Of a stretch of 64,000 nt of DNA, positions 805 through 62,169 are shown one piece after another. The stretch comes from Odiellus spinosus. Taxonomy: Eukaryota; Arthropoda; Arachnida; Opiliones; Phalangiidae. The position numbers were made by a program, and so were the translations under genes. Every line of letters begins with the position of its first letter. The first letter of the stretch is position 1. The notes beneath the pieces were generated by a model that had not been told where the DNA came from, did no database searches, and saw only the letters and a program-made list of their open reading frames with translations. The stretch covers positions 20,121,600 through 20,185,599 of the forward strand of contig OY987226.1 of assembly GCA_963920705.1 (NCBI GenBank), given 5' to 3'.

Positions 805-3281
<2,477 letters not shown>

Positions 3282-9290: not shown

Positions 9291-10323
9291 GACTTGTCCA
9301 ATTTAACATATCCTCGTAATCTAACCCAACCCTAGCAAATTAATTATTCGGCAATGCTTTATTTCCCGATTGAACCGCGAACGATATATATACGAATAAT
9401 TTAATTCGAATAGCGGTCGTCCGCCAAGACGAGGGAAAGGCGGTCGAACAATTTCGAGGTAAATAACGCGTGAACTTGCCTCGGGCCAATGACCTTTCGA
9501 GCGAAGATATATAACCCTCCCAAAAAATTCAGTCTTGTTTTTTGTTTTTTTAAACTTAAAAAAAATGAGGGTAGAACTTTAAAATGTCGTTGAAGCGTAT
9601 TCTTCCATTCATTATCGTCACGTTCCTTAGAGTCGTGTAGGTTTGAACGATGATATAAAGTTACGCAATGAATGGTAAGTAGGCCTATATAGCTAAGGCG
9701 TATAGGTCTGGCGTTGCGCGCCAAAGAATAAAAAGCCCCGTTACGCGCAATGGAATTTAATTCTACCATTATAGAACAATTTGATTGAAATTCGCGGACG
9801 AGTTGACGATAGTCGAGTGACTCGCGTTTAATCGCATATAAACGATAATAACTAACCCATTTAGTTTACTATAAACTTGTCTATAAATCTCTAAGCGACG
9901 TATAAATCCGTTACCAAGAACATATTAGCATCTCGAGAACAGGTGACAGCTTCCCATATCTATACTCAACCCGCTGTTGTTCCCGTTCATTCTATAATAG
10001 AAATATGAATTTATATCTGGAAATGTCATCGTTAATTTATTCGCTCTTCGTAGGCTCATTAACAATTATCATACGCGGCTGGTTTGTTTTTAATCTTTGC
10101 AGCATTATTTCGAAATCTTAAGTTTGTCTCCGTCTTAAATATGTTATTTTTCTTTATTTCGTTAATTCAATATTACGAAACTGCTTTCAAAGGGATAATG
10201 AAGACGTATATACTGGTGCTCCCTCGTCTCAATCCTGGCACCCGAGACGAGGTGGAATTAAGGGAAGGTAATATTATACGGTGGAACCTAAAGCTTTGCC
10301 CGTCCTTCTAAGACGCTAGCCTA
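9291..10323. other. Intergenic, no gene seen
   Basis: AT-rich with no convincing exon. Open frames on both strands lack codon structure or any recognisable domain. Confidence 0.5.
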
Positions 10324-22700: not shown

Positions 22701-25700
22701 GAATCGATTTGATTCGATTTCTCGAGACTGCTTCGGGAACCAGTTTCATTTCGGTTAGGTTTCAACAACCGATAGATGAATCTACGATAAATCGATTGAT
22801 AAAGATAATGCGTGAACACGTGACGCTTAAAACGATTCCGGGCGATTCGAATATCGGTTTGATTTAACCGTTTCAAATAGATTAAGAAATTCTAGTGTGA
22901 CCATAGCTATAGTGTTAAGCTATATTTTCCCTTTAAATTCAGACAGAAAGTTCCGTCTGAATTTTGGGCTTGTAAATAAAGGCGTTAATGTGTGGAATGT
23001 TTAAATTAAGATTGAGCTAAGGGAACTACGCGTTAAAATTTTATCCAACCGTCAAAACATTCTCGTTTGCGAAGGTCAAACCGACTGTCTCTGGCGTGAT
23101 CTTTTTAAATCTACATTTTGATTTTCGTTGAGAAACATTCCTTCGTATTAAAGGAACTGTAAATACCCGGCGAAGTCCCCCACATTAAAAAAAAAAAAAA
23201 AAAAAAAAAAACACACACACGCTGTATTGACTATTAGTTTGATGTCAAACTCGGCGGAGGTGTGACGTCAATGACAATAGCTGCGTGCATACTAGACCTT
23301 GGAATCGATTTAAACCGTTTCAAAACTTTTCGCTGGAGTCGTATGAACCGGAAACCGAACCAGTTTCTTACCGATTCGGTTTCAACAACCGATAGATGAA
23401 GCTACGATAAATCGATTTATAAAGATAAAGTGTGAACACGTGACGCTTAAAACGATTCCTGACGATTTGAATATCGGTTTGATTTTACCCTTTCAAATCG
23501 ATTAAGAAATGCTAGTGTGAACGTAGCTAATGTCACGTGATTACTTAAAAAAATGTAAGGAGACTCCGACTCCGCCAACGGATTTACAGTTCCTTTATTA
23601 GGAGAATGCAACCTAACCTTATCGTTTAAATAAGCCTAATCCACAAGTAAAAAAAAACTACAACCAAATATTAAACTAGAAATTTTAAAACTTAACCGGA
23701 AATGAATTCGTGGAGATCCTGAATTTCTTCGTATTGATGGGTCAGCGACCAATCAAATGTTATTAGAAGTTTCATGCGAGATTTCGTCATGAACGACGAG
23801 CATTTGTTCATTGGTCGCTGACTCTTTAATTCGAATAAATTCAGGATCTCCACGAATCCCGCTAAGCCTATTTTCCGGGTAAATTTTAAATATATTTCTA
23901 GTTTAATATTTGTTTTGTAACTTTTTATTGATGGATTAAGCCTATTAAAACGATAAGGTATCGATAAAAAAACCACTTGTTATTAAGCTGCATTCTCCCT
24001 TTAAAAACTATTTCTAAAAATCGCGACCTTGGCAAGTAATTACATTACCGCTTCTATAACTTTTTACGAAAAAATTAATAACTCCGCCTATTATTTTTGT
24101 TGTTAATTCTATTTCCAAATTTTTGGCGTCACGCGTATCTCTTTAGGAATTTTAAAAATGAAATAGGATATTTTTCAAAGGTCGCGATTCCATTTCAGTA
24201 TTATTGTCTCCGCGAATATCGCTTATAGGCGCCATCGTTATCAATAGGCCAAGGTTAAATTGGCAAAAGTAATAAATATCCTTTCAAAAGTCGGCGTCGT
24301 CATTTCCAAGGAACCTCGTTTTCGATTAAACAGAAGCTTTTTAAGCGTGACTAAAATCTCTAAAACAATTAGCGAAAGTTCCCAAACTCTCGTACGCGTC
24401 ATCGTTTGACGTTAACGTTTTGGTTAGTGGTTACTAGTTAATTATGCTATTGGAAAACCGAGCGCCATGACGATATTTTTTTTTTTTTTTCGGTTTTTTA
24501 ACATTCGCGCCTCATTGTCTTTCATGACTTTGTTTTAAAGGGATACGAGACTCTACAGAAACTAGTTATTTTTAACAGATTTAACAGCATAAAAACATTA
24601 TCAAAAAACTCGTCAAAGTCTTCTGTTGGTGAAAACAATTTTCACAGATATTTCCAGCCCTGTATTTTCGCGCCTTATTAATGACATAGATAACCTTGAG
24701 ATAACCCTCATTTTTCTATCGTCTGCTCTAATGTTTTTCATCCCTTGATTAGCCAGTAGATATGATCATTCTGATTATAGCTTTCAAGCAGTGTATTTAA
24801 TTCAACTTCTGGATCAGTTAATATATATAATAAATTATACTAATTCTTTATAAATAAAGTTTAACTTAATAATATGCATGTGTTATTCCTTCAACTCGTC
24901 AATCACCAATTGAACATTTAAAATCTTCTTTAGTTACGGTCACACAGCATTTTTTAATCGATTTGAAACGGTAAAATCAAACTGATATTCAAATTGTCAG
25001 GAATCGTTTTAAGCGTCACATGTTCACGAATTATTTTTATAAATCAAGTTATCGTAGCTTCATCCATCGGTTGTTGAAACCAAATCGGTATGAAACTGGT
25101 TCCCGAAGCAGTTTCGTGAAATCGAATCAAAACGATTCGATAAAAGACGGTTTCCCATTCACACGTCTCTAGCGAATCGGTTTAAATCGATTCTTAGGCC
25201 TAGTATGAACGCAGCTTATCGGTTGCCAAACTAACAAGTTATTTTATCGATTCCTTATCGTTTAAATCGGCCTAATCCACCAGTAAAACAATTTACAAAC
25301 AAATATTGAAAAAGAAATAAATTTAAAACTTAACGCTGAGAATAGGCTTAGCTGATTCCTGGTGATCCTGAATTATTTCTTATTGGTGGATCAGCGACCA
25401 ATGAACAAAGGGCCGTCGTTAAGGCGAAATCTCCGTCGATTTGTTGCTGGATCCATCAACGTTAAGAAATTCAAGATCTCCATGAATACCGATGAATCCA
25501 GCTAAGCCTATTTTGCGGTTAAGTTTTAAATTGATTTCTAGTATAATATTGGTTTGTAATTTGTTTTACTGTTGGATTAGGCCTATTTAAACGATAAGGA
25601 ATCGATAAAAATCGTTGTTAGGTTGCATTTAGCCTTCATTTAGATTACTAGTAAATTAAAAATTTATTTTTAGTTCCATATTTACTCGTAACGTATTTTT

Positions 25701-28700
25701 GAAAGCTGTCTATTTATTCGAAAGCGAATCGCTCCGTTTTCGACTGCCACGTCTTCTCTGCACTTAAATGATTATCTGTCGCTATGGAATTATTCAATTT
25801 TAGTAGCGGTACAATAATCTTACATTAGTAAAGAACCTATCTATTCGGTAACTAAGAGGATTGCTACGATTTCTGGATTAGTCTTGGATTTCCAAAATTG
25901 CTTAAAATTCAGCCTTGCGTTATTTTTATTTCGAGTCAGTCGATATTAGGCGAGAAATAATCGTATTCGTATTTAGTCTTAATTCGGTTGTTTTTATAGC
26001 GAGTTTATGACTGTGCTTCGTAGAATCGTGGTTCCGGTTGACCGCTCTTAGTTCATTTAGTCAAAATAACAGGCGGGGACCGAAGAGGAGGGGGAAGAGG
26101 CGCGTTTAGATGACTTCTCTAAAGGAACACTGACACACGATCGAGTTGAAATATCCAAGAATAGGTCTTCTTATCGCGTAGATAGAAAACACGCGAGACC
26201 ATTTAAAGGTACCACGGAGCTATACTTACGGCAAGAATCATCCGCTCAACCCCAAACGCATTCTTCCAGAGTTCAAATAAACCTGGAAATCTCAGGGAAA
26301 TAAATTAAAGGTTAAAAATTCAGGAACATTTTGAAATTTTAGTGAAATTCAAGGAGATTAAAAATATAAGTGAAATTTAAGGTTTGAGCATATTTGGTCT
26401 ATTATATTAAAATTTATTGACTTAAGTGGATAGTGGTGGTCTTGGACCTGGGAATTTCAGAGAAATATTTGTGGAAAAACCTGAAAATGTCAAGGAAATC
26501 GGTTTTGCAAAAGTTGTATGAACCCTATTTAAAGACTTCTATTTACTATACCATAGAGAATATTTTCTATAACTATACTGCCCCTGTAGTTTTGGGATCG
26601 CTGTTTCCCGAATGTAGGAAAATACGGAAGGCGCGGTTATAGGCATCTGCCAATTTTCCATTCTGAAAAGCCTAAGACCTTCCAATGTAATCGCGAAGAT
26701 CCAATAATCGTTCCTCGATGCCCTCCAACGATTACTTTAGACGATTACTCCTGTCGATCTATTCGAAGCAGTATGCGCCATCTATGACCTACAAGAAAAA
26801 ACCTTTTAAGTTTTTGGCTAGAAAATACGTAGTTTCAACTTTATTATAAAAGAGCATTCGATTACTTCACCCAGCGCTGTTCTCTGTCTAAAACGAATGT
26901 CGTTTCGAATTAAAACAGTTTTATTTTTGAAGGCATACTTATCGTGAACAATAAATATGGTTGGTATTGAGAGATTCGCCATTGTTCATTGCTTTTGATA
27001 GTTAAGGAGTGTCACGCTCCCTTTAAGTTTTACCCAAAAAAATCCCCGGCTTAGTTCTCGGGTGAACGGTTGTGGTAATTCTCTTTTTCTCGAACAAGGA
27101 GACGATTCTTTCCCGTCAGCTGACACTAAATAGCCTCGTATATATACGCAGTCTAATCTCTCCCCCTCTCGCCTCCATACACGGCGCTCATCACGGGTTT
27201 ACGACTCAATCGCCTTTAGTTTTAGTTACGAGATGTCTGTTCAATAGACTTCTCGATGGTTCGTCAGGGACAAGTTAGGAAATCTATAGTAATTACACTT
27301 CGATGCTCAGGGAAATATTAGGCCAGTTTTATAAATAGATTTCGAGGGTCTATAGGAAAAACTAGAGCGTCTTAATGCGAATCAACTTCGGGAGGAGAGG
27401 AAAATTATGGTAATATTAGGAAGAGTCTCGGAAATAGATTCCGGGATAGATCGGAATTTTTTTTATTCCATCTTAACTTCTTGGAAGGCTGTAGGATGAA
27501 GGCAGTACATAGTAAATCTACCTCGAAAATTACGAACGAATGAGTAACTTATATGTTGGGGAAATGTTAGGATAGTTTTGTAAATCGACTTCGAAGATGG
27601 GGCAATGCCAATCTCGAAGATAAACCTTGAAGGTCGAGGGAATTAAGTTGGGGTAATCTCGTAAATACATTTCGAGAGTGGGGGGGGGGGGATTAAGTTG
27701 GGGAAATCTGGTAAATACAATACGATGGTCGGGGGAATTAAGTTGGGGTAATCCGAGGGGTAATATTGTAAATACAATACAAAGGTCGGGGGGATTAAGG
27801 TGGGGTAATCTCGTAAATACATTGCAAAGGTCGTGGGGGGGTTAAGTGGGGTTATCTCGTAAATACATTTCGAAGGTCAGGGAAAATTTAAATACTTGTA
27901 AATTAAGTAGTTATTCCAACATTACTAAAACGAAGCATAACAAATATGGGTTCTCTAGTGATAATTTTCATCTATAAATGATTGTTATAAAATTTCGACT
28001 TGTTTGTAATATATTGGTCCAATGACCTTTAGTCTGTAAACGCGCTTAGTATTTCTTTCAAAATGATTATTTATATTTCAGCATAATTATACTTTGCGAA
28101 CCAGTAATTGTTGGTAATTGTATTTTAACTCGGCGTAGCCAATAAAGACGCGGCCCACCCGCTCCTTTTCCGAAAATAAAAGACCACATTCTTTCAGAGG
28201 AATTTATCCAATAATAAAATATGTTATTAATATCACTGTGCGCTTTGAAACCGCATTTTCAATACTTTCAAATATATCGCTTTTTAGGCAAACAATTAGT
28301 TTTTCGGACAAATGACCTTTTTGAAGACGAAAACTAGGTTTCTCTTTTAAAGTTTAGCGTGAACTACGTTATTATTACAGTAAATTATGACCTCTTACCA
28401 ACTTAAACCCCTCCTCCGCACCGATTAAAATTCTCCAGAGATAATTAAACACAGTCCCGCGCGGTTGAACTTTCATTATTTATCCTCGGAAGAATTCGGT
28501 GGATCCCCCCACTGGACTTCCATCCATCTGGTTCCTCGAATCCCTTGAAGTTCTTATTTTGCGTTATCCCTTTATCACCCTGTTTTTTAAAGTTTTATGA
28601 ATAAATGTCTAGGTGGCGCCATAGGCTTAAAGGGAGAATGCAACTTAACAACAAGTATTTGTTTTATCGATTCCTTATTGTTGAAATAGGCCTAATCCAC

Positions 28701-31700
28701 TAGTGAAAAATTTTACGAACAAATATTAAACTAGAAATAAATTTAAAACTTACCCAGAAAATAGAGTTAGCGGGATTCATGGAGATCTTGATTTCCTCGC
28801 GTATAAGGTCTAGCGACCAATCGAATGCGATTCTAAGTCTCGTTGAGATCTCGTGAACGACGGGCCTTTGCTCATTGGTTGCTAGACCTTACACGGTGAC
28901 AATTCAGGATCTCCACGAATCCCGCTAAGCCTATTTTCCGGGTAAGTTTTAAATTTATATCTAGTTTAATATTTGTTTGTAAACGTTTTATTGGTGGATT
29001 AGACCTATTTAAACGATAATTAATCGTTTAAAAAAATCACTTGTTAATAGGTTGCATTCTCCCTTTAAGTAACTTGAAGGATATCTAGTCTTCAGTTAAT
29101 TCACTCCTCGGGAGTACGAATAGAAAGAGAGAGGGGGAAAAGGTACTAGACGCAAAGGCAAGAATTATACTTTTAATTTAAAATTAGTTTAACCAAGAAT
29201 TCATTCAGGTTCCATAAGAATATGGGAGGGCCGCGATTCAATAACCATCCTCCCAAACTTTGTAGAAAAAGTTCGTCTGCTTCGAATCGATTTTTCAAGT
29301 AAATCGCTCCTGACATCTATTATTAACCCGCGCCATTAACGACCTTGACATAATATTTTGGGTAATAAAAATGGAGCCGACCGAAAAAAGTTCTAAGCGT
29401 ACAAATTTTGCGAAAATTGCAGACGAACTTTTGTTACAAAGTTTGGGAGAATGGTACCAGAGGCTAAAGCAAGGAGGATCAGAGAAGGAGAGGAAATGTG
29501 GGGCTGCGTTGAGTTAGAGAGAGAAGAGCCAACCTCCCACTCGGGTGGAAAGGGGGATAGGAAATTCTCGAGGTAAACTGTTGTCACGTGGTCGCTAGCT
29601 AGCGCGTCTCATAAAGGATTCGTTTTACCCACGCGACAACAATTTACCACGAAGCATCTATACCCCCGTCTGTCCCCCGTTCTCCCAGAGTGGGAGTTTA
29701 GGCCGACGCAGTAGGAACCGCGCCGTCCCCACATTTCCTCTCCTTCTCTGATCCTCCTTGGCTAAAGCTATGCTCCCAAATTCTTATGGAACCTGAATGG
29801 ATTCTTGGTTTAACCCTATTTTAGTAATGTAAAATCGCCATTTCCTTTTTTATTTTTTTGAAATCCGCCTAGTCAGTGTATATATAAACTGGCGATACTA
29901 AAGTCGTACTCCTACGCGCATGTGTAACGATCTCCGTTTTAATCTTTTTAAAACGCCCAATTTGGCGGAGAAGGAGGGGGGACGGCCTGGAGGGGATTGT
30001 CGAACTCAACTAGTTAAAAAATTAATTTACATAAAAAAATTTACTTTATCACCAGAAAGACTAAGCTGTCTCTTTTGGATTGAATTTTTTTCTAACCCTT
30101 CCCGAAGCGGTTAACGATAAAAAACAAGTTGCAGTTCTAAACACTTTATAACTTCGAACCAGCTGGGTAAAGAAAATGCGAAAAAATTTATATTTGGGGC
30201 ATTGAAAATCAATTCGCCAATCTGGCAACCGTGGAAGCTTGAGGCACCGGGCTAACAACCTCTAGAAGCGTATCTGTGAAAGCTCTCCGTTATTGAATCT
30301 AGAGTTCTAAATCAGGAATTTACCATGGTAATTTACGGTTTGCTCTGCAAAATTACCGTAATTTAGAAATTAAAAAAATATAATTTTTGGCTTTAAAAGT
30401 AAAACAATTGCTAGATCGTCTATACATAGTTTTCACTAAAGGGGGTAAGTTCCGTTCCCCCCATGTTGCCAACCACTTGTGAGTGCAGAGGGAAAGGCTA
30501 GAGTTCAGTTTTGAAACTGATCTATTCTGAACTGCACTCACAAGCTCCTGGCAACCTGGGAATGAAAGCAAAGCTGGGTAAGAGGGGTGGAATTTTCTTT
30601 TGCCCCTTTACTGAAAACTATGTATAAGAGATTTTCGAAAGTTATTCGCGCTTGGCATCGTTAACGACTTGTTAATGTAATTTTTTCATGTCTGAACCAA
30701 GTTCCTTTATCACTAAAAACTCAAATGGTCAAGCGTATCGTGAAAAACATTGCGTTATTCACGAGTGTAGGTTTATTTTAGTGAAAAAAAGCTTTTTGAA
30801 GCCTTTTAATGATGAATTTCGCGTTTAAAATCGCAGAAATTCAATTAAAACCGCGTAATTTAGCAATTACGGTAATTTTAGAACTCTATTTGAATCCCCT
30901 TTATAATTCTTCCACGAATATATAACGAACGGTAGGCTAAAAATAAATGTACTTCGAGAGTTGAGAATCATATTCATAAATTCAGAAGCCGATGAAACCC
31001 TCCTTTGAAGTCTACTACTCTAATGTTCCATATAGCGCTCCTCTCTGTATGGGTAAAATTCCCAATTTTACGAGATCAGAGGGGTCCTACTTCATACCCC
31101 CTGTATGAAATTTTAAGAAATTTATTTTTAACATTACTTGACCCAAAGGTCTACCTAGTGTTGTGGGTCTTCTTTACGAGATCGGAGGGGTCCTCATACC
31201 CTCGGTCTACGGATAATTGGAAATTCTCTCTCTCCACAAACGACGACGTTTTTTTGACGAACTCCAAGGCTGCTAGAGATATTCTCTCGACGAACTCCCG
31301 CTCCGAAAATATCTACCGTTAGGAGGCGTACGAATCGCGCTTTTTGAAACTAACCCATGCAGAGAGGGGTAGACAAGACCCGGGAGTAATAGACTTCAAA
31401 GGAGGGTTTCATCGGCTTCTGATAAATTATATAGCCATACAATACGAAACACAAACTAATATTGGGGAAACCCCGCCGTAGGGCAAGGGTTGACACGCGT
31501 CTACAAGGAAAACTTGGAGGAAACACTCGAATTAAACAAATGTTTTATCGTAGTTTCGTACGCGTTGCCAATTTGTGTCTATTAAAAATATACACGAATT
31601 AAAGGAAGCCTGAAGGATATATCGAATGAATAATTTTGTTGATGAAACAGTAATACAAATATTTTGACTCCGCTTAATTACGCCACCCTACTTATTTAAC

Positions 31701-34700: not shown

Positions 34701-37700
34701 GCTATTGTTCTTATTTTGTTCCATAGATAAGGATACTTTCTTCTATTTTAATTTCTCGGTGTAATAACTAAAAATCTCAATTTAAACGTCGAGAAAACTG
34801 TCTGTTAGTTTAAAATAACCATTCAATTTTGCGGTCCGGTAATTGAGCGAATGAATTTATATTAAGAGGTTTTCAAAACGACCAAGGGGAGAAATAGAGG
34901 TACATTAATATTGTCCGAAACCATCTCGGACCAGACGCCGCGAAAGTCGATAGACGAGGGAATTCCCCGCGGACAGACAACGCGAAAATAATTACGAATT
35001 TTTTATACTTGATCTCGTTGGCGTCGTATTATTATTACGAGCGACCACGCCCAAAAAAAAAGCGTGTCCTCCTCTTGAAAATGATGATAAAGAGCGCGGG
35101 TGATAAAATATCGGGTCACCCTACATCTTCGTGACTTTATTTGGTCTCATTAACGCCGTTCGTAAAAAAAGATCACGCGATTGACAAAGCGTCACGATGG
35201 AGTAATGAAGTTGCCCGACAATGATCTACTTTATAATCCGTCTACGGTGGTAGACGATAGCCAACCGGGTGAAATTTCAGTCAAGCGTGTCGTAACTTTC
35301 GGGCTCCGTTTTAGACTCGATGGAGCCATATACGCCTACCATCGATCTCCAAGTACGTGGTTTAATCACGTCTGCTCGAGCAGGAAATTACCCGCCCCTC
35401 TCCACGTCATTTGGTTTAATTTGAAAGGGGTCCAAGCGGGACACGCTGCTAACCTGCTTCTTAGCCGGACCCCGTCTCAACTGGTCATTATGGGCTATAT
35501 GTACTATAAATACGTGTCGCGTTCGCTACGCGTGACTGGTTGAGCTAGATATTCTAGAATTGGTAATTGATATAGGGACAGCGGAATAACGCGTCTTGGC
35601 TAGACTTATTGGAGACCATCTTGTTTGTTCAGTCCAGACGTTTAGTAACAGATTTGGTATGTATAGGTATAAAACTAATGTTTAGCAACAAGATTGTTTT
35701 AGTGCTGAATGAAATTTCTCATGTCGCTACCCGGGTAAATGGACATGGTCCTTGAATAGGCAGCGTAACTTTGGATTTGACTCGTGTAAAAAAATAGTTT
35801 AAGAATAGCTATGTGGAGGTATAAAATACTTAAAAATCTGTAGAAAATTAAGTTCAAATCTTTTACAAAAATAAAATTATTATGGTGGGTTAGAAAATTG
35901 ATCTGAAAGGTCAATTACGACGAAACTTGAAATGAAGTCGATCGCCCTGGCAAAAAGTCTGGCGACTCCTATAAATTTAATTACTTATACCCTCTTCAGC
36001 CTTCTCAGTTCAACAAACCTCAGTCAAGTCAGAATCAACCTCGGTTAATAGACGATAACATAAATTCTGACTACGTCTCAACCTTGAAAAAATGTACTAT
36101 CTTCCGTATAAACGGGTTCTATTTAACGGCTCTTTTTGTTAGTTTCAAGGCTGGAAAAAGTATAGAAAATTCTACACTTTGTACCAGCCTTGAAAAAAGG
36201 GACCATCTTCAATACAAACGGGTGCTTTTTAACGGCTTTTTTATTCGTTTCAAAGATTATTTTATAATAAGGCCTATTGTGCATTGTCTGAAGAGGGTAT
36301 AACGCTTTGGGGGAGGGGAGGTTTAGGGCGTATGCCAATGTCTAGCGCCGATCTGGTCAACCTTAATTTGCTCGAATAAAGAAAGAACGCCTTGTCCGGT
36401 ATTCACTCGTATTAATCAGCATATTATTTTTCGTTCTATTTAGAATGTGGATCACAAATTGAAGCTGAAATCGAAGAAGGGCCAGTTGCCCTTCGTGGAG
36501 TTCAATGGGGCCGAGATCGCCGATTCCGACATCATTATCAAGGAGCTGAGCAAGCAATTGGACAAGGACCTCGACCACGACCTGAACCCGGACCAACGCA
36601 ACGTCAGCCACGCCTTCATCTCCATGCTCAACAATCACACTAGCTGGTAAGTAAACATAAGACGCCTAAGTTCGTAATTAAAACAAAACAGAAGAATCTC
36701 AATATAATTTTCATACCGAAACGAACGATTACACATTTCTAACACTTTTTTGGATATTATTTTAAACCCGGTAAATGTCGTGGGAAAAAGCAAAGAATAT
36801 AGAAATCGTTGCTATTTCGCTAACGTTGAAATTAGCGAGTAAATATTCGGGAAATATCTAGGAAAACGTTGAATAAGGAATAGAGACAGTCAACTATGAA
36901 ATTACCTGGCAATTAATGGAAAAAAATGTTGATAACAAAAAGAAACAGTATCAGGAAATCGTGTTTTCCATTTTCTTCATGCTCGATCGCGAACGGAATG
37001 TCACTGCTAAGGGAGAATCGGGGAAAAACTTAGACCAAGAGGCTATGAAAAGGTCGGGAATTTCAAAAATTAGGTCATAAGACTGTGGAAAAGTCGGTAA
37101 TTTTGAAAATTGGGCTAAAAATCTGTGGAAAAGTCTGGAATTTTGAAAATTGGACAAAAAAGCCTTGGAAAAGTCGGGAATTTTAAAAATTGGGATAAAA
37201 ATCAGGTAATTGTATTACTAAACATGGCCTTACTGTAAAATACCAAAGTAAGCGGGATATGGAAACGAAAACTACACAAAGAGGATCAGGAAAACCTGCG
37301 AAAGTCATGGAATTTTGAAAAGGCAATATTTCTTTCAAGTTGCAACTCTGATGTGATAGCTCGAAGCGGCAGTCTTTTTCTTTGAGTGGGAGCCAACTGA
37401 TTTGCGCCGAGTAATAGGTGTTCGCTGTCGAAGAAAGCGGCTTGGCTTGGTTGCTTAAATTGAGTTGAGATCGTTTATATGTGGACGTAATGCTCTTTTC
37501 TTTGGTCCTCTTTTTATTAGTTGCCATAAACTTTAATCGCCGGGTTATTTGGGAAGAGGGCGAAGGGTGGTGGTGGGTGTGTTGGGCTCTTCCTTAAATG
37601 AAAGATTTATACCCCTCGGTCGCTCTCGCTATTGGTTTTTATAGGTTGGTATCTTTTTCTCACGTCCCCCTTTTTATCGAGCCACAAGCCCATCTAGGGG

Positions 37701-40700
37701 AGTTGCCCCTTAATGGGGTGGAAGAGCTGATAGGGATCGATGTACTTACGCTCCGTGTTAGACCCGAAAAGAGAAGAAGTTTCGACGTGACAAATCCTCT
37801 TAAACGCTGTACGTTAATTAAATATATTCCTACAAGTTAAATTGTCGTATTTAAATGTGGCCACCCATTGCCCAAGAATAAAACTCTAAACGGGGTTGTA
37901 AATTAGTTACAATAACATGAAATGATTCCAGTAAATTGTTATTTTAAATTTTAAAGTCAAGATACTTTGCCTAAATCTTCCAGATAAATGGGTGTAGTAT
38001 GGTCTAAAAAGCACGCATACAAAGTTTCACTCAAAAACATTTAATATTTTTCTCTTTCGAGAGAGACATTTGAATTTCCAGAAACTTTTCGCGTCATTTA
38101 TAGTTTCCGCCAGAATTAAACTTTATTTCATTAGATGGTACACGCTCCCCAGATTAATTTACAATCATAAAATTTACGTGAGCCACTCGTTAAAGATTAT
38201 TCCGCCTCTGATAAAAATCGAGCGAATATCACAAAAATGACCGGTATCATAAAATGCGCCTAACTTTTCTGTACTATCACCCAGGCATAAGACGTTCCCT
38301 AGATTAATTTAAAATACTAAAATTGACTTGAGTTACTCGTTTAAGATTATTCCGCCACTGATAGAAATTGAGCAAAAATCCAAACGTTACCCCTAAGGTG
38401 ACTGACGTCACGAATCATGTCACCTTTATCCCATGATCGGGAGGTATTGGCGACCCCCAGTCGAGAATAGCTGGCAAAAAGCGAAGCCAAGGACTGGTAT
38501 AGTTATCCCCCGACGAGAGAAGGAAGGTGCTTTCTTTTGGGGAAAGGACGGTAGATTTAATTTGGAGACAATAATGAGCTTATACTAGAATCATGCTATA
38601 ACTTCCATCTAAGCGTGTCTTTGACCGGGCATCGATTAGGTAGTCACATTCTTAACGGGTCGGGGGGGGGGGGCTTTCCTGGCTTATAGGTATCGGGATG
38701 GCGTCCGTTATCCGGCCAAACACTGTTGTTTCTTCATTTTCACTCGGGTCTTGTTTATTCCGGGTCCGCCCTATAATGTCATCTCGATCACTCGTGGGGC
38801 CACCGCCCATAAACTAACTACCTCGGGCGTGAACTTATTCCAAAAGAAATGAAGTGAATTCTAAGACCCACTGATGTTTATTGGTCGACCTCGTGGGGAT
38901 ACCTTTTCACTCCAACCGAGTGTAATACGCGAAAACTTAATTTTTGTATTTGTTAGAATCTAAAATATGATATTTAATAAAAAAAAAATGTATCTAAAAC
39001 AGTTAAATTGTGAAAATAGTCAAGTACTATTAAATTTCGAACTCACAGGTCGACCACCATTTTGAATCTGGCTCGGATAGAAGGGGATTCAAGCCAATCA
39101 AATTGGCCGTGATAAAACCGGGAAATATCGGATTAATTGGTTTTCCAAATGTTGTAAGCTTCGCGCTCTATCGGAGAGTTTGAGAAATGGAACGAGGAAC
39201 TCGAACGTGTACGCGTAGCTGTACAAATTCCATGCCTTATAGAAGCTTCTCGTAAACCGTACGGAATCATTGAATTAAGTAGTAAAAGGTGTACTATTAC
39301 GAATATTTCGTGGTTAATTATTAAAGTCGTGAACTGAACTCTATTTGCAACAGAAACGCCGTCTGCTAAGGTGTTATCGCTCCCCATTGAAAAAATACAT
39401 AATGTATTTTTCTCCTTAGGGATAACACCTTAGCAGACGACTTTTCGATCTTGAATTAGCACCCGAAATCCGCCGAAGAAATTCAGACTATAGGATTTTA
39501 TAAGAAAATTTATGAAATTCGCCGACGCCAATAGGCCTTTCTATAAAATAATCTTGGAAACGGGTAAAATACCCGTTAAAAAGCACCCGTTTGTATTGAA
39601 GATGTTGCCTTTTTTCAAGGCTGGTTCAAAGTATAGGATTTTCTATACTTTTTCCAACCTTGAAACTAACAAAAAGAACCGTTAAATAGAACCCGATTCT
39701 ACGGAAGATGTTGCCTTTTTTCAAGGCTGGGTCGTAGTCAAATTTATATTATCACTATTTGAGGCCGTCTAAAAATGGCGCCAGCAGAACCGATTGAACT
39801 CTAAAGCGTATTTTCGAAGATTTACGATAACTGGAAAATGGGTCTATAAAAGATAATTTGAGAATTGAGTAGAATGATATTGTCGAAGAGTGATGGAAAG
39901 TTTAGTTAAATTATTTTGGGATAATCGGCCGGAAAAATCGTTGAAAAGACTGGATCTAATTTTAAATTCTCCCGGTCCTAATCATCCTAATGTATTTAAA
40001 ATTATCCAAGTTTTCCGCCGAATAAAAATGAGAAGGTCTAGCAGTTCGCGAAAATGAAATCATTGTCGATTTTGGAAAGCCAACTTCTGGCTTCAATTCG
40101 GCGTATTTCGCCAAAGGGGTGTGGCCCTTACCGCTACATCCCCCCCCCCCCCGTAAAGTATTCTCCTCTCGATTTGGTTCGTTTAGACGAGATATTGTAG
40201 CGAAAACGCTGGCAGCCAGAGATGGAGTCGATTTTAGGAAGCTCAAGAGCAGCGCGGCGCGTAGAGAGAGAGAGACGGGCGATCGATTCGTCTCTAGACT
40301 GCTCCAAGACCGCTACCATTTTGATTTGGGCGGGGGTGGCCGAACCTAGAGATATGGGATAATGGATGAGAGGAGTGGGGATGAGGGGTTCCTCCTTGGT
40401 ACAACCGTTCTTGGTCTATTATCTACGTATGGTTAATTTGGCTGCTTTGGGAGCGCGTGAGGAGGGAATGCCTGATTCGAAAACTGGTCCACTTCGCCTG
40501 TTTTACCATCGCGTAAATGTGAAAATAGGCCTATAATGTGTACTCTCTCTGGCGCAGTTAAGCCTATTTTTACCATGATATTCTTCGGAATATTTAAGTA
40601 GCTACTTAAGGTTTAATCTCCCAGTTTAAGTATTTAGAAGGATTCCTTCCATCCAATGGGTTTATATTTATCGCGCAATGATTTGTTGTGGTTGGGCGTG

Positions 40701-50351: not shown

Positions 50352-53248
50352 ATGAATAATTTAAATGAATTAGAGAAACAAGTTGCCGAAAAACATCCGG
50401 TAAACTTAATGTTCAATATTAAAAAATTTAAGCGTTATTATTTCATGTTTTATTTTCAGGGATTCGGAACTTATATGGAATGCATGTCTCGGGCCTTAGT
50501 CACGGGAATGATATCTTTTGGTTTAGGTATAAACATTATGTATTGTATTCTCATAATTTCTCAATCTCTCAAGTGGTCAGGTCGCGCCACAGGCGTCCAA
50601 ATCAGGCTTAGAAAAAAGAATTTTTTTCAACCAATCCTCCGGACCATGAACTCAGGAATAATTAAACTGGTTCGATTAAAAGTTCCCCTTACTATATTTC
50701 AAATATATTATAATTAATAAACTAGTCCGTGAAACCAGTGACCCTCCGTTTTTAATTTCAGAAACTGATCCAAGCATTTTATAATTTTATGAACAACTTT
50801 TTGACTTGTAGACATATCTTATTTCTAAGCCTCCAATACTCTTTTGGCTGTGTGATAAATATCCCAAATGCTCCAGAACTATTCAAAGAAATCCCATAAC
50901 TATGAATTTCTGAAGTGGGTTTAATGAGGTAATTTGTCCAATAAAAAAATATTTTTATATTCGGCGCTGTCTATGGATAAATAAGAATTCCCATTGCCCC
51001 AGAAGGCAGTGCTTATTGTCACGGGAGTCCCGTGGCAATAAGCGTGGTCTTATTGCCACGGGAGGAGGGCTCCCGTGGAAATAAGACCATGCTTATTGTC
51101 ACGGGACTCCCGTGACATGTTAAGGGTGTTTTTTTTACACTGTTGGAGGAATTTTTTCCTTGAAAATTTATTCTACAAGGCTTTTTTATTATAAAAATGG
51201 CAAGGTTTCTGATAACCGACCCCCCACAATATAACGATCGTTTTGGTTTGTTCCCATTTCGCCCAAAATTATCTATTCCCATTTCGCCCAATCCTACTTC
51301 ACCCAAACGTATTATCCTTTGGCCCAAAATTATCGATTCCCAATTCGCACAAACCAAAATTTCCTTGTCCCAATTCGCCCAATCGTTTTATCAGTTAGTA
51401 AAAAATTATCTATTCCCATTTCGCTCAACCTAAAATTCCTTTTCCCGTTTCGCCTAAAATTGTTAGGTTAGGTTAGGTTACCAAAACTAATAAATTAAAT
51501 TTTTCTTTAGATTGGGTTGGGTTAGAATGGGTTTTGGTTGGGTTAGGTTAGGTTAGGTTAGGTTACCAAAATTAATAAAGAAAATAGTTCTTAAGATTGA
51601 GTTGGGTTATGTTGGCTTGGGTTAGGTTAGGTTAGGTTAGGTTACCAAAACTAATAAAGAAAATTGTTCTATAGATTGGGTTGGGTTAGAGTTGGTTGGG
51701 TTAAGGTAGGTTGGGTTGGGTTAGATTACCAAAACTAATAAAGTAAATTGTTTAGTTACATCAATAAGTGCGTGTAGAAATAATTAAACAGGACGAAGGA
51801 ACCGATCAAGAGGATTTTGTTCGCATATGCCTTGGGTGTGGATTGGGCGAAATAAGAATTTGGTAAAAATGGAATTATGCGAAATGTGATTTGGCGAAAT
51901 GGGAATTAGGGGAAATGGGATTGGACGAAATAGGATTGGGCCTAATAAATTGGGCTGATTGGGAATTGGGCCAGTTGGGATTGGGCCAATTGAGTTTGGG
52001 CCAATTGAGATTGGGCGAAATGGGAATTGGGCCAAATGTTTTGGGCGAATCGGGGTAGAACCATGGTTTTGAACTAATTAGAACCTGGGGAGTTCAGAAA
52101 AAATACTTAAAAAAATCTTCAACCATCGGAAGTTTGAGAAAAACGCATTTCAAAATTTGAAGTTTGCATGTTAAATCCCATAGATTCTAACCCAACCCAA
52201 CCTAAAATATACCCAATCTAACCTAACCTAACCTAACCCAACCTAACCTAACCCAACCTAACCTAACCCAACCTAACCTAACCCAACCTATGGCGCATTC
52301 TATGGGATTTTAGCATGGGAATTTCAAATTTTAAAATACATTTTTCTCAAACTTCCGGTGGTCGGAGATTTTTTTTTATTATTTTTTTTGAACTCCCCAG
52401 GTCCTAAATAGTCTATAACCATCATTATTTAGTGGGGGGTCGTTTAACGGAAATCTCCCCATAAAGGCATTTTTTATAAAAAATATTTTTTCATTATAAA
52501 AAATATTTTTTATAATGAAAAAATATTTTTTATAATGAAAAAATATTTTTTATAATGAAAAAATATTTTTTATAATGAAAAAATACTTTTTATAGTGAAA
52601 AATATTTTATAATTAAAATTTTTAATAATAATTTTGGCCGCTTTGGCGAGGTAAATATTTTTTTTTAAAGTCTGTTTTTTATCTTAATTTTGGCCGCTTT
52701 GGCGCCTCATAGTAGAATAACAACAACCTTAACAAGTCACGGGAGTCCCGTGGCTATAAGCATGGACTTATTTCCACGGGAGCCCCTCCCGTGGCTATAA
52801 GTGTGGTCTTATAGCCACGGGAGCCCCTCCCGTGGCAATAATACCACGCTTATTGCCACGGGACTCCCGTGACAATAAGCACTGCCTTGCCAGAAATAGA
52901 TGAACCCCATCTATCCCTTTCTGGTATAGCTGTATTTTCTATGGAGTTAGCACTCTGGAGTTGGTATACCTCACTGAACTTAGCCTCTTACAGACGACTA
53001 TAAAACCGGCTACAAATTATATTTCAATGTAAATTGTTTTCTTTATTTTTCAAGCTGTTTCCGGTACTTATTTCGTACAAGTTTCGGTTAAAAACCGTTT
53101 GCCTTTAGAAAAAAAGTATTTCATGCCAATTTCTTTAGGCTTGGGTGCTATAGTGGCTTGGCAAGTTGCTTCTAAAAGAACAAAAAATTGCCAATCAGGT
53201 TGGATGGCCGTAGAAGAAAAATATACTTACTTCACTCAAACTAAATAG
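50352..53248 (+). CDS. TMEM141: TMEM141 homologue, three exons, complete
   Basis: Exons 50352-50399, 50460-50526 and 53055-53248 join to 309 nt, 102 residues; human TMEM141 is 108. The first intron is 60 bp and the second 2528 bp. Protein: MNNLNELEKQVAEKHPGFGT, then YMECMSRALVTGMISFGLAV, giving a first membrane segment at about 27-48. A second is at about 59-77 (YFMPISLGLGAIVAWQVA), followed by a short tail with K-x-x-x-C as in the human protein (KNCQSGWMAVEE). The match to the human V.AKHPG...Y..C.S.A...G pattern is from memory and convincing. This is a small two-pass membrane protein of unknown function. Exon 3 is separated from the rest by the large composite foldback element; splice sites are AG/GTATAA and TTCAAG. 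Confidence 0.9.
51458..51740. repeat. (TTAGG)n-rich telomere-like interstitial array
   Basis: Four blocks of GGTTAGGTTAGGTTA-type pentamers alternate with ACCAAAACTAATAAA and GATTGGGTTGGGTTAGA, giving a higher-order period of about 80 bases. TTAGG is the common arthropod telomere unit. Confidence 0.85.
52196..52292. repeat. (CCTAA)n telomere-like array, opposite orientation
   Basis: CCTAACCTAACCCAA units repeat across about 97 bases at the centre of the palindrome 52082-52404. Confidence 0.88.
52501..52600. repeat. 20-bp tandem repeat
   Basis: Five units of AAATATTTTTTATAATGAAA; the first four are identical and the last has two changes. A partial inverted unit precedes it. Confidence 0.92.
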
Positions 53249-53706: not shown

Positions 53707-56700
53707 ATGTCGTCGTTAAAATACACGCACGCTATCGTGTGTCGAATCCCGGATAGTTTCGCGACCGAGGCCCAAGGAGTCAAAGGTGAAATCAACCTGG
53801 AATTAGCAAGAAAACAGCACGAAGAATACCGCAAGACGTTACGGGACTTGGGTTTGGACGTCATCGAATTGCCGCCGGACGAAAATCTTCCCGATGGCGT
53901 TTTTGTGGACGACACAGCTGTTGTTTGCAACGGAACGGCCTTAATTTGTCGCCCCGGACATCCTTCTAGAAGAAAAGAGGTCAGTTAACTTCTAGAATTA
54001 AGTCAGTTGACCATCTGTTAAGCCCTGTTTTCAAAGGAGCGTGTAGGGGGCAAAAATCAATCAGTGCCATGAAAAGAAAGCGAGCGAGAATATATGCTCA
54101 GAGGGGATAGTTTTTTTTTACCCTCGCTTTTATGAAAACGATCTCTTGCTTAGTGAGAGTGCTAAAGTTGTTTTTCTCACACCAGCTCGAATTGAAAACC
54201 TGGTTTCCCGATTCTAATGATTGGTCATTTTCCTTTTGAATTGACTTTTAGGAACCACTCTAGTTAGATAATAGATGCTTGACATTAGCGTCATTTTTCA
54301 TGCTATCTTGGCAGGCTGGTCCCTTTAAACATTGCCTTCAAATGTTTGGCATTGTCAAAGAGCCCCTTGCGATAAGATAACAGATACGAGATGAGAGTAC
54401 AAATCTTTGATGCTCTTTCTAGTCAGAAGTTAGTTTTAAACTTACGTAATCAAACCTAACCAGTATTAGGCAATTGAAGATTGATTTTATAGGCTGATTA
54501 TGCTCTGAAAAAATTAAGAAACTTGCCCACCACCATACCCAGCCCAACCTATCCTTACCTTTAAAAAAAAGTCCGCTTTTTAATCACTCTGATAATGAGT
54601 GATTGATGAATGTTGACTTCATTTATTTAAGTTTTATTATAAAGAAAATTATCTAGTTTCTTTAAAAATGTTTGGAGGCATATGATTTCTAATCTTCGAT
54701 ATATTTTTGGCCTCAAAAACCAAAAAATTGTACAAAATATTGTTGACATTTACAGTCAAAAAATTATAAACCAGTTTTTCCGGCCCACAAACTGCTATAA
54801 AACGAAGAAAGTTAAAAAAATCATAAAAAAAAGTGGTCTCTTTAGAGAATTAAAGTTAATATTGTCTTTGAATTTTATTTCAGTCATAATTTACCAAAAC
54901 GAAACGTGTCAAATTTTATTAATTTTTTTAAAGGGAGAATATAGCGTGACCAAGTGTCATTGTCTTATTTTATGCATTCCTCTTTGTTAAAATTTCGGCA
55001 TTATTCAAACAAATATTGAGCTAATTTTAACTTACTTTGAAAGTAGGGTTAATAAGAACCCACTGAGAGTTTGATAACTAACCAGTCTGCCAATCGCTAG
55101 AGCGCTTTCATTATTTCAAAGTTGAAATGATTAAAACTGGGCTTAAGAGGCTTATCGGTAGATATGAATCTCCCCATTAAGTAGGTATACTTCTCACTAA
55201 ACGGGGTAAATACTGTTCCCCCAGTGTTGCCAGCCACTGTGAGCACAAACTGAAGCAAAGAGAAGGCTAGCAGTCTTGTTTTGGAACTGATCCGTTTTTA
55301 AATGGGCTCAAAAGATCATGGCAATTCGGTAAAAAGAAGTGGGAAAGCTGGGTAAGAGGGTGCAACTTTGGCACCTTTAGCGAAATCTATGTATTCTGAG
55401 TAATTTATTCTGAGTAATTTATTCTGTTACATATATTTCTAGTTTGTTATTTGTTTGTAATTTTTTACAAGGAATGTACGATAGACAATCAGTCTTTATC
55501 GCGAAACATTTTACCCTTTACCTAATCTTAAATTTTTTATTTTAATTATTATTTAAGGTTGAAACTATTAGGGCTGTCATAAAAAAGGAACTGGAACTGC
55601 CCCTAGTGGAAATAGCCGACCCCAAAGCTCTAATAGACGGAGGCGATGTCTTGTTTACTGGTAAATATTATCCAACCTTTTTATAATTTGCTAATATAAA
55701 AAATATCGTCAGGATAAGGGAGAATGAAGTGGTTTGATTGAATGTTTGTACTACATTATTCCTTTTTAATAATTTTTCTAACTGTTCAATGTGTATAACG
55801 CTGGTTTGAGGCTAACCAAATTTCAAACTGAAATTTCTCTATGGAATTTTAATGAAGAAATTTCAAAATTATGGCGTTGACCTATGGGATTGTTCCCGTT
55901 TTTATAAAGATGCCAATTTTGTCTGTCAGGTAAAGAGTTTTTCGTGGGTCTTTCTCAATGGACGAATGAAGGAGGAGCTCGGGCTTTGGCAGCGGCTTTC
56001 CCTGAATTTCCCGTTACACCAGTTCCAATCCCCTCGGATTTACATCTGAAAGACTTTATGACCATGGCTGGACCTGACATCATTTGCGTGGCTGAAGGAA
56101 ATCAAGCGCAATCTATATTGAAGGTACAACCAGCCAAAATGCTTTAAAAGGGAGAGTGCGATAGCCTGACAACGAGTGACATTCTATAGAAGATTCATTG
56201 TATAAATTAATAAGAAAGGGTACTTTAAAATGGTTTTGGTAAATTAGGAATCTAGAATAGAAAATTGATCTTTGTCAGGTGTTGTTGCTGCATTCTCCCT
56301 TTAAAGAGAGACCTTTAATTTCATTAATTTGACTCTTAGAGAATGGAGCGAGAAGCCACATATAGGTACCACAAAGTGACCGTGCCAGATATACGGGCGG
56401 CTAATTGTCTGTACGTCAACGGGTCGCTTATTCATCGAGCCGAATTTCCTAAAAGTATTCGGGTAAAAATAAGCCCCTCCCCACCTGCTTAAAGTAGACA
56501 CGCAATCTGCTTCGATTCGCGCCTTGTCAAATTGATCTCGATCCAACTAGATATTTAATCTTCAGAAACTCAAAAATTCTTGTTGTTTTTACATTCTCAA
56601 CGTCAGTTTTCCTGTTCATTTCAATGTGCTACCATAAAATAAGGAATGAAATTGGCTTACCCTATGAGGAAAAATCTTCTAATTTGGTGAAAAATGGTCC

Positions 56701-57222
56701 AAATTGGAAAATTCCAAAAGAAATTGACCAAATAGACGAAATAAAATAACAAATTTAACGAAAGTGAACCAAAATTTAAACTGGCTTTCGTACACTTTTG
56801 TTGAATTCAGGGTATTTGTTTTGATCTATTTGGTCAAATTCAGAAAAACAATTTCCAACTTGGATGATTTTTCACCAAATTAGAAGAAAGACTTTTCCTC
56901 ATTGTGAAAGCCGATTTAATTTCATTATTCAGTGGGAGCACAATGAAATAAAAATGTAGAAACAGCTTCGTAGTTTTTTCAATTTCTGAAGATTAAAAAC
57001 GAGAGATAAATTTGGCAAGCTGCCCTAATCCAATCAGGTAACGTCTAACTTAAATTAACATCATTGTTTAACCTAAATAGCGTTTTGTATCAACAGGTTT
57101 TTGAAGAGAAAATCGATTACAATAGGATCGGACTAGATTGGTCAGAGTTGGATAAAGCGGGAGGGCATCTTGGCTGCGCCGTCATTCTTGTCCGAAAAAC
57201 AAAATATATCAAGAGACTATAA
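53707..57222 (+). CDS. DDAH1: N(G),N(G)-dimethylarginine dimethylaminohydrolase, five exons, complete
   Basis: Exons 53707-53979, 55558-55660, 55930-56123, 56340-56462 and 57097-57222 give 272 residues (human DDAH1 is 285). The enzyme hydrolyses asymmetric dimethylarginine and monomethylarginine to citrulline plus the methylamine, relieving inhibition of nitric oxide synthase; it is cytosolic. Visible family marks: THAIVCRIPDSF at the start; DGVFVDDTAVVC with the acidic pair at 68-69; RPGHPSRRKE; DGGDVLFTGKEFFVGLSQ with D121; catalytic His164 in SDLHLKDF; VPDIRAANCLYVNGSLIHR; and the nucleophile Cys258 in GGHLGCAVILV near the C-terminus. So the pentein-fold active site is intact. All introns are GT-AG; intron 1 is 1.58 kb. 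DDAH1 and DDAH2 cannot be told apart firmly, but the sequence is closer to DDAH1 in wording. Confidence 0.95.
55186..55393. mobile_element. Foldback element family F, copy 3 (diverged)
   Basis: TATACTTCTCACTAAACGGGG, GTTGCCAGCCACTGTGAGC, GGAACTGATCCG, AAAGCTGGGTAAGAGGG and GCGAAATCTATGTA align in order with the copy at 30421. It lies in DDAH intron 1. Confidence 0.68.
56146..56303. mobile_element. Small TTAA-type MITE in DDAH intron 3
   Basis: The left end TTTAAAAGGGAGAGTGCGAT and right end TTGCTGCATTCTCCCTTTAA are inverted, and so are AGCCTGACAACGAGTG and TGTCAGGTGTTG. About 155 bp; the ends resemble family A. Confidence 0.7.
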
Positions 57223-59844: not shown

Positions 59845-60296
59845 TAATGCTGTTGAAGGCTGAAATAATATGATTGGCCCGAACTTGCTCTTCACTTAAA
59901 TTCAAACTTGGAAACGCTTTTGAATTTATTTTTTGGAATCACCATGTTTGGTAAAATTTGAATGAAAGTTAATATAAATTCGGGCCAATCATATTATTTC
60001 AGTTTATCAGCGCTAGCAATGTCTTAACATGAAGAGAATAGGCTGGCGTTTTGATGGCTAAGACCTTCGGCGTCAATCAACTGCATATTCTTTTAATGCT
60101 AGCACATTACAAGCGCTGTTAAAGGCTGAAATAATATGATTGGCCCGCATTTATATTTACATTTATTTAAACTTTAGAAATTAATTTAAATACCAAAATA
60201 GTGTCTAAAAATTGCGCAGAAATTCTAGAATATGGCATGGTGATTCCAAAAATAAATTCGAAAGATGCTATATTTTTAGCTTATAGTTTCCCTTTA
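59845..60296. mobile_element. Foldback MITE family B, copy 3, rearranged
   Basis: GAAGGCTGAAATAATATGAT / TGGCCCGAA occurs twice in direct orientation (59852 and 60121) and once inverted (59981). The right end TTTTAGCTTATAGTTTCCCT is followed by TTAAG. The left part is a duplicated inner segment where the outer arm should be. Confidence 0.75.
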
Positions 60297-61032: not shown

Positions 61033-61207
61033 AATCGGCCGAAAACCGCGAATAAATGAATTCTCGAGATTTACAAAACTCCCCCAAACTGATGCACGTC
61101 TCAAAGGGGGGAAACTGACCAAATTTGAAGGGTTTTGCCCTTTTCAGGTCTTTAATGATTTTTAAAAGCCACAATTAAAATATATGTTTTGCAAATTAGT
61201 TTATTTT

Positions 61208-61580
61208 ATCTCCCTAACCAGGTTTCATAATTTTAGGGTGATTAGTTTTTAAGTAAAAAATTAAATATCAACGTAAGATTGTAGCGTGTGCAAAGCTTTA
61301 CCGCGTGCTTCAATCATTAACTCGGGTAAGTTTTGAAATTTTGGGAGAGAAGTTTTCCTGCCATTTTCCAAATGCCATACATAGGTATTTAACTATAATG
61401 ATAATAGATTAGTGTTAATCTACTCTCACTATAGTTAAATAACTATGTATGGCGTTTTGAAAACGGCAAAAAAACTTCTCTCCCAAAATTTCACAACTTA
61501 CACGCTACCACCTTACATTGATAATTAATTTTTAATTTAAATTTATCACCCTAAAATTACGAAATCTGGTTAGGGAAATA
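61208..61580. mobile_element. Foldback element, ~370 bp
   Basis: CTCCCTAACCAGGTTTCATAA is inverted at ATTACGAAATCTGGTTAGGGAA. TTTTGGGAGAGAAGTTTT faces AAACTTCTCTCCCAAAA. ATACATAGGTATTTAACTAT faces ATAGTTAAATAACTATGTAT. Confidence 0.85.
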
Positions 61581-61937: not shown

Positions 61938-62169
61938 AATAGACGATAACATAAATTCCGACTACGTCTCAACCTTGAAAAAATGTCCCATCTTCCGTAT
62001 AAACGGGTTCTATTTAACGGCTCTTTTTGTTAGTTTCAAGGCTGGAAAAAGTATAGAAAATCCTACACTTTGTACCAGCCTTGAAAAAAGGGACCATCTT
62101 CAATACAAACGGGTGCTTTTTAACGGTTCTTTTATTCGTTTCCAAGATTATTTTATAATAAGGCCTATT
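61938..62169. mobile_element. Family C element
   Basis: AATAGACGATAACATAAATT to AATAAGGCCTATT, over 95% identical by eye to 36047-36278 and the reverse of 39530-39759. Inner inverted pairs include TTTCAAGGCTGG / CCAGCCTTGAAA. Confidence 0.85.

Follow-up and report, generated by a model that had tools for sequence, protein, structure and literature searches.

Three nested palindromic transposons in intron 2 of TMEM141 in Odiellus spinosus, very probably moved as one unit

A 64,000-nucleotide stretch of the Odiellus spinosus genome (C2:20121600-20185599; hereafter the window) holds, in intron 2 of the host gene TMEM141, a structure of nested inverted repeats that is very probably three transposons, one inside another. 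The outermost, E, reads as a non-autonomous foldback Mutator-like element (MULE) most like Rehavkus. E carries a second palindromic element, P2, whose left arm carries a third, P1, and the whole appears to have moved as one unit. The initial annotation of this DNA proposed a mobile foldback-type element in the same intron, and this is borne out: other copies share its ends, and target duplications are present. The single composite element that it described gives way to an outer element with two separate transposons, since the inner palindromes are distinct elements, with P1 inserted in P2. The genome searches covered 443 Mb in 286 contigs.

Movement of the nested unit

The arrangement of E, P2 and P1 recurs at two further loci, L010 (C4:4.31 Mb) and L009 (C7:11.78 Mb), where the elements meet at the same places as far as these copies extend. 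Compared with the window and outside tandem arrays, L010 shows 7 substitutions in 1061 bases and L009 shows 1 in 457; inside the arrays the counts are 26 in 686 and 1 in 137, with 12 and 3 indel events, respectively. Both loci have one extra palindromic unit on the left side. The flanks of L009 and L010 do not match each other, and the flanks of the window share two stretches only with L009 (44 and 22 bases) and none with L010. Because the nested unit lies at three places in different flanks, the unit moved after nesting. In L010, the tandem arrays change faster than the remaining sequence, suggesting that they alter length by slippage.

A local rearrangement or segmental duplication is scarcely credible as the source of these copies, even though one end is missing from two of the three. 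In E copies with a recognized tip, similarity starts at that tip (GGCAGTGC), the flanks are unrelated except for the two short stretches, and 9-bp duplications accompany seven E copies. The nested unit is a case of three transposons that very probably travel together.

The outer element E

E spans 51005-52886. The initial annotation had set its limits at 51003 and 52888, two bases further out on each side, because the outermost AAGG and CCTT take in the tips of the target duplication. The nested inverted symmetry described there is real, and the terminal arms are arrays in which palindromic units recur every 37-42 bp or so, three in the left arm and four in the right. The outermost 63 nucleotides of the two arms (51003-51065 and 52826-52888) are 98% complementary, and a further pair of 75-nucleotide stretches (51067-51141 and 52711-52785) is 88% complementary. 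Allowing up to two mismatches, CACGGGANTCCCGTG occurs four times in the window, every time in the E arms, against an expectation of 0.06; none of 100 shuffles reached four occurrences. When folded with DNA parameters, the left arm (113 bases) forms one long hairpin. E therefore has the long inverted ends made from short repeats that define the foldback class. The window copy contains one stop-to-stop frame above a 110-codon cut-off (122 codons, 51019-51387, minus strand), whose status as a gene is unsupported.

A genome search with the left 115 bases of E gave 69 matches, which merge into 20 loci including the window. Other copies thus share the ends, contrary to the first half of the refuting case set out in the initial annotation. 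All 30 first-look candidates of this search were scored, and C140 and C1:9.036 Mb seem to be a single place counted twice. The exact 14-base tip GGCAGTGCTTATTG occurs 26 times in the genome, and its reversed control occurs nowhere. Seven of the 26 tip matches (L080-L086) do not belong to the 20 loci, and of these seven at least five are not useful E copies; the 26 matches therefore do not equal 26 elements. Four of them (L080, L083, L084 and L085) show the same flank, then a 23-base E tip, then the same unrelated sequence, and this is a single E tip fragment embedded in another repeat. L082 has no similarity to E beyond the tip. In L086, a diverged E-like end at about 2486-2546 (minus strand) is 75% identical over 61 bases with different palindrome letters, and it perhaps represents a sister family of E.

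Aligning the copies defined the tips of E and revealed its target duplications. Both ends are present in seven copies, namely the window, L011, L012, L013, L017, L018 and L027 (L019 was removed as a duplicate of L018), and in that order their 9-base flanks match at 6, 9, 9, 7, 8, 8 and 8 bases. In 42 cross pairs, the mean is 3.1 and the maximum 5. E copies are thus dispersed and bear target duplications, as foldback elements do. Duplication lengths of 7, 8, 10 and 11 gave inconsistent matching, with single copies reaching 6/7 (L018) or 7/11 (window), and were rejected. The copy at L027 has a length of just 45 bp and consists of one palindromic unit flanked by TACCATTTT and TACTATTTT. A search of viral contigs in IMG/VR for the E tip, the palindrome unit and an AlkB relative confirmed nothing.

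The inner elements P2 and P1

P2 is an abundant repeat. A search with 52063-52735 returned 1427 first-look candidates, of which 40 were scored. When P1 is omitted and the two parts of P2 are joined, the alignments of 14 of the 20 P2 copies retrieved begin at the terminal GGCAAGG (window 51199; query positions 53-59) and run on through the join. Among these 14, L053 ends before the right end, and L047, L049, L052 and L056 extend somewhat beyond it. The remaining six copies (L043, L048, L054, L055, L058 and L059) begin after the join, at query position 100 or 139. In the 13 of 20 copies with both ends, recognized by pattern, the 8-base flanks match at 56% on average versus 26% in 156 cross pairs. 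P2 looks like an old resident of E, because L017 holds it reversed, between the same two flanks, which are likewise reversed. L011, L012 and L014 hold partial P2 only, joined to the E arms at CCTAA/TTAGG arrays, as if these arrays had served as exchange points.

P1 is likewise abundant (935 first-look candidates with 51240-52060, 40 scored), and it lies within the left arm of P2. Of 11 copies examined, nine have both ends, and the 8-base flanks of these nine match at 76% versus 27% in 72 cross pairs. The two copies of each P1 duplication differ mostly at the third base: this is so at 10 of 13 independent sites, with C in the left copy at 9 of the 10. The tally covers 19 copies, counts only sites matching at 4/8 or better, counts five copies sharing one flank once, and excludes two 3/8 sites. 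Such a difference could be a signature of repair or insertion.

The initial annotation placed an array at the center of each inner palindrome. For P2 this holds well: the palindrome of 52098-52175 and 52309-52386 is 81% complementary, its arms match at 104 of 122 aligned bases, and a CCTAA array lies at its center. For P1 the palindrome is weak. Inverse alignment of its arms (51245-51460 and 51840-52062) gives 138 matches in 195 bases, with a score of 41 against a maximum of 29 in 200 shuffles, and it is absent among the 25 longest of 152 inverted pairs. When 290 bases to either side of the TTAGG runs are considered, only 2 of the 12 rows for P1 lie above the 95% null value, a result that, although from a biased sample, speaks against strong palindromes around the P1 arrays.

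Telomere-like arrays

The arrays had been attributed either to breaks healed by telomerase and then duplicated in inverse orientation, or to the element's own repeats. In the former account, telomerase would heal breaks in a foldback element with TTAGG, and inverted duplication would then yield the palindromes. TTAGG is indeed the telomere repeat of this genome, as would suit an arthropod, with arrays at nine of the 20 contig ends that were read (one of these ends reads N), and the arrays of the window lie at palindrome centers in opposite orientations. Exact 30-bp TTAGG arrays occur at no fewer than 25 interstitial places on contig C1, and the E copy L017 holds a third palindrome, noted by eye at 3355-3660, in which short TTAGG-like runs lie close to the center. 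Even so, telomere capture is very unlikely. In a sample biased by the choice of DNA, P1 and P2 account for 26 of 31 array places. The TTAGG runs of P1, at 51463, 51543 and 51622, lie within a 79-bp repeat unit and form no plain telomere array, and the P2 array is rich in CCCAA variants. Nor do the arrays interrupt a sequence that is otherwise continuous here: they lie inside P1 and P2, which carry them elsewhere too. Among the five array places outside P1 and P2, only both copies of the duplicated place L018/L019 lie above the 95% null flank score.

Since the arrays belong to P1 and P2, telomerase repair at the site is not needed. The alternative of the element's own repeats came nearer the truth, except that the owners are P1 and P2, each a separate abundant family, and not E. 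In the distant past, the arrays of P1 and P2 may or may not have come from telomeres. Telomere-like arrays inside palindromes can accordingly be passengers of mobile elements and not scars of chromosome repair, which matters wherever interstitial telomere repeats are taken for old chromosome ends. On contig C1, the interstitial arrays, at least 25 in number, precede a terminal array at 35.43 Mb, and one of them lies in the P2 copy L043.

Coding relatives of E

An autonomous relative with the same ends was sought, and two loci, C33 and C2:30.42 Mb, join an E end to MULE transposase and AlkB-type open reading frames (ORFs). Their interiors are 93% identical over 2.9 kb, and the tip of the C2:30.42 Mb copy has one mismatch. 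The ORF inside the E end matches the Pfam family 2OG-FeII_Oxy_2 (5e-26); its closest solved relative is human ALKBH3 (6.6e-25), with ALKBH2 at 4e-13. In the C33 copy, this AlkB-type ORF has WHSDNE, WQHR and RLNITFR, in which HxD, H and RxNxTxR are present; we take these motifs to be catalytic. The corresponding frame of the C2 copy has one stop. The ORF that follows matches the RNaseH-like domain of ZSWIM1-3 (2.4e-26) and MULE (1.8e-10). Between the two copies, the AlkB frame shows 4 synonymous and 5 non-synonymous changes (pS 0.027, pN 0.010), and the transposase 4 and 7 (pS 0.024, pN 0.010), counts too small to speak for or against selection.

The PF10551 (MULE) profile has 72 matches in the genome. 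For neighbor counts, matches were merged by hand into 69 MULE places, 41 AlkB places (from 52 matches) and 27 E places (20 + 7). A MULE match lies within 4 kb at 2 of the 27 E places, 3.2 and 3.4 kb downstream of the E left end on the same strand, where uniform placement predicts 0.034 such neighbors. Four E-AlkB neighbors lie within 4 kb, and at one of these, L020, the AlkB sequence is outside the E end seen there. Many of the AlkB matches are stop-free and only 45-60% identical to the E version, and they form a large AlkB family in this genome. At L081, the E tip is joined to sequence that resembles, by eye, the tail repeats of the AlkB ORF.

Other E copies are tied to the coding ones. The decayed copy L015 combines an E right arm with an AlkB remnant and the interior start of the coding copies; its inner inverted stretches match at 171 of 189 aligned bases, and a minisatellite (1547-2196, a 23-bp unit repeated 28 times) precedes the right arm. 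The C2 coding copy also has a minisatellite, after its last ORFs (9147-9982), with its end not in view. Beyond the tip, the arm of the C2 coding copy aligns with non-coding L017, 59 of 65 bases matching, and a 43-base word is exact.

A transposase of another kind, for example of the P type, might move E, in which case the MULE genes beside two E ends would be later neighbors. The foldback shape arises in several superfamilies, Galileo being a P-type element (excerpt of PMC3169594), and an E copy uniting both ends with a transposase was not seen. The 9-bp duplication nevertheless fits a MULE. The same interior stands beside an E end at two loci, at similar spacing and with the identity given above, L015 ties the right arm to this interior, and the C2 coding copy and L017 share arm sequence past the tip. 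A non-MULE enzyme is improbable on these grounds.

The AlkB gene beside a MULE transposase is the surprising part and a point worth following. It is quite possible, if still tentative, that E is a foldback MULE family of the Rehavkus kind that acquired an ALKBH3-like demethylase gene and kept it as its own equipment, with non-coding members that carry other palindromic elements. If so, the AlkB protein perhaps cleans alkylated or methylated single strands at hairpin ends, or undoes silencing marks.

A 333-amino-acid frame in the C2 copy that resembled a Ulp1-like protease by eye was rejected, with no Pfam match and PDB matches at chance level. Near this copy, L089 (about 1500-2120, reverse strand) resembles by eye a piece of a Polinton-type capsid gene.

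A proposed course of events

E would insert through a 9-bp staggered cut, by cut-and-paste of a MULE-type transposase acting on the palindromic arms. The enzyme is presumably a MULE/ZSWIM-type transposase supplied by E-ended relatives like the C33 and C2:30.42 Mb copies, whose coding interior may have been lost in non-autonomous members. P2, an older palindromic transposon with an 8-bp duplication, sits whole or in part in several E copies, and P1, also with an 8-bp duplication, would have jumped into the P2 left arm in one E lineage. Both were probably captured by ordinary insertion. The three-layer unit very probably then spread as one piece to three or more sites, one of them TMEM141 intron 2.

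Several observations weigh against this course of events and against a MULE assignment. Both E ends are found at only 7 of 20 loci, and 12 others are without one or both tips at up to two mismatches. The window copy of E matches at 6/9 flank bases ungapped and needs a 2-base gap for its duplication, and it is the only complete nested copy: L010 is without the last 21 bp of E, and L009 breaks off in P1, so that about two thirds of the unit is missing. The P2 duplication inside E is poor (5/8), and elsewhere 5 of 13 P2 copies match at 3/8 flank bases or fewer, with two exact. As for the autonomous relative, no intact copy was found among 39 transposase matches. The C33 tip has diverged (GACACTGCTTATTATC) and was missed at two mismatches, its transposase frame is open but cut short, the C2 transposase is broken into several frames, and the right E end is unseen in the stretches read at both loci. 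The link between this transposase and the mobility of E is suggested by position and shared sequence.

Host locus and genome context

The joined three-exon protein of the host gene matches the Pfam family TMEM141 (2.2e-25). An Rfam scan of the window at gathering scores gave no match, and a tRNA gene search found none. At least 11 further self-reverse-complementary stretches lie in the window, several of one family, and palindromic elements seem to crowd the Odiellus spinosus genome. A repeat of about 230 bp has three copies in the window at 89-97% identity (36047-36278, 39530-39753 and 61938-62169). Coordinates of the features are collected in Table 1.

Table 1. Features of the nested unit, the host gene and other palindromic stretches, in window positions
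Feature	Position	Strand	Remarks
E left target duplication	50994-51004	.	TTGCCCCAGAA; right copy TTGCCAGAA; differs by two bases, CC
E left arm	51005-51117	+	tip GGCAGTGCTTATTG and three palindromic units of ~40 bp
E left arm, inner part	51118-51198	+	partly common to other E copies
Putative old P2 target duplication in E	51191-51198; 52461-52468		ATAAAAAT; ATAAAGGC; 5/8
P2 left terminal piece	51199-51244	+	GGCAAGGTTTC...; severed from the rest by P1
P1 left target duplication	51237-51244	.	ATCGTTTT
P1	51245-52062	+	818 bp, weakly palindromic; GGTTTGTTCCC...GGGGTAGAACC
P1 center	51462-51752	+	79-bp tandem repeat with TTAGG runs
P1 right arm repeat	51840-52049	+	15/30-bp tandem repeat GGATTGGGCGAAATG
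P1 right target duplication	52063-52070	.	ATGGTTTT; 7/8
P2 main part	52063-52460	+	remaining left arm, center, right arm; end ...ATCTCCCC
P2 center	52187-52290	+	CCTAA/CCCAA array
E interior right of P2	52461-52735	+	
AT-rich 20-bp tandem array, E interior	52478-52608	+	
E right arm	52736-52886	-	four palindromic units and tip ...CAATAAGCACTGCC
E right target duplication	52887-52895	.	TTGCCAGAA
TMEM141 exons	50352-50399; 50460-50520; 53055-53248		read by eye
Other palindromic stretches, first set	18216-18401; 19145-19450; 20664-21074; 21668-21981; 23616-23959; 25227-25625		
Other palindromic stretches, second set	28626-29069; 29470-29760; 56615-56952; 59952-60176; 61207-61580		

Comparison with known systems

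The reading that suits E best is that of a non-autonomous element in a MULE family resembling Rehavkus. It has the duplication of the MULE superfamily, which is 8-11 bp and usually 9 bp, and a MULE-type transposase occurs together with E left ends at two loci, in frames that are broken or cut. By structure, Rehavkus is the nearest described kind, a likeness drawn from published descriptions. According to an excerpt of PMC6446971, Rehavkus is a MULE outgroup in insects and annelids with a 9-bp duplication, inverted ends of 26-400 bp, a minisatellite before the 3' end and a PHD finger; an excerpt of PMC10218199 describes Rehavkus-1_TC as a 9.5-kb element with short tandem arrays in its inverted ends. 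E likewise has a 9-bp duplication and repeat-built ends, and its inverted ends also run to tens or hundreds of bases. Minisatellites lie after the last ORFs in the C2 copy and before the right arm in the decayed L015, and may correspond to the one of Rehavkus. The PHD finger match in the E relatives is weak (E 0.064, below cut-off), and the AlkB-type ORF beside the transposase sets them apart.

Tm1, a Mutator/Foldback family of root-knot nematodes, has composite, repeat-built inverted ends, 9-bp duplications, a MULE transposase in few members, non-coding members and one nested case (excerpt of PMC3169594). E resembles it in each of these respects as a foldback MULE. In the same excerpt, Tm1 ends are mostly 14-bp tandem repeats, whereas those of E are palindromic units of about 40 bp, and the Tm1 transposase is of the Phantom type with FLYWCH, whereas the best match of the E relatives is ZSWIM1-3. 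In the pieces of E relatives scanned, whose N-terminal part lies in broken frames, FLYWCH (Phantom) had no match at E<=1, and the MULE domain matched.

Two insect elements are also alike. Muta1, an Aedes MULE, has an imperfect palindromic terminal motif, subterminal tandem repeats and 8-9 bp duplications, and its derivatives vary in repeat number (excerpt of PMC5225508). It is like E in being a foldback MULE by behavior, with a palindromic terminal motif, repeats and similar duplications; it differs in its 12-bp subterminal repeats and the 10-bp imperfect palindrome at its tip. Tetris of D. virilis is likewise a non-coding foldback element with 8-10 bp duplications and no autonomous copy found, but nested palindromic elements and telomere-like arrays go unmentioned in the excerpt of PMC4079207.

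As for the AlkB gene, the main texts of PMC6446971 and PMC13359780 were searched for the terms AlkB and 2OG (2-oxoglutarate) and contain neither. In the literature searched, as far as the excerpts go and with Repbase entries outside its coverage, AlkB is named in orchid Ty3/Gypsy retrotransposons and in no MULE. The orchid elements acquired an AlkB-type demethylase domain (excerpt of PMC9289625) and so likewise unite a mobile element with AlkB, although they are plant retrotransposons and the E relatives are animal DNA transposons. An AlkB-bearing E family would extend AlkB from the plant retrotransposons and RNA viruses of that excerpt to animal cut-and-paste transposons.

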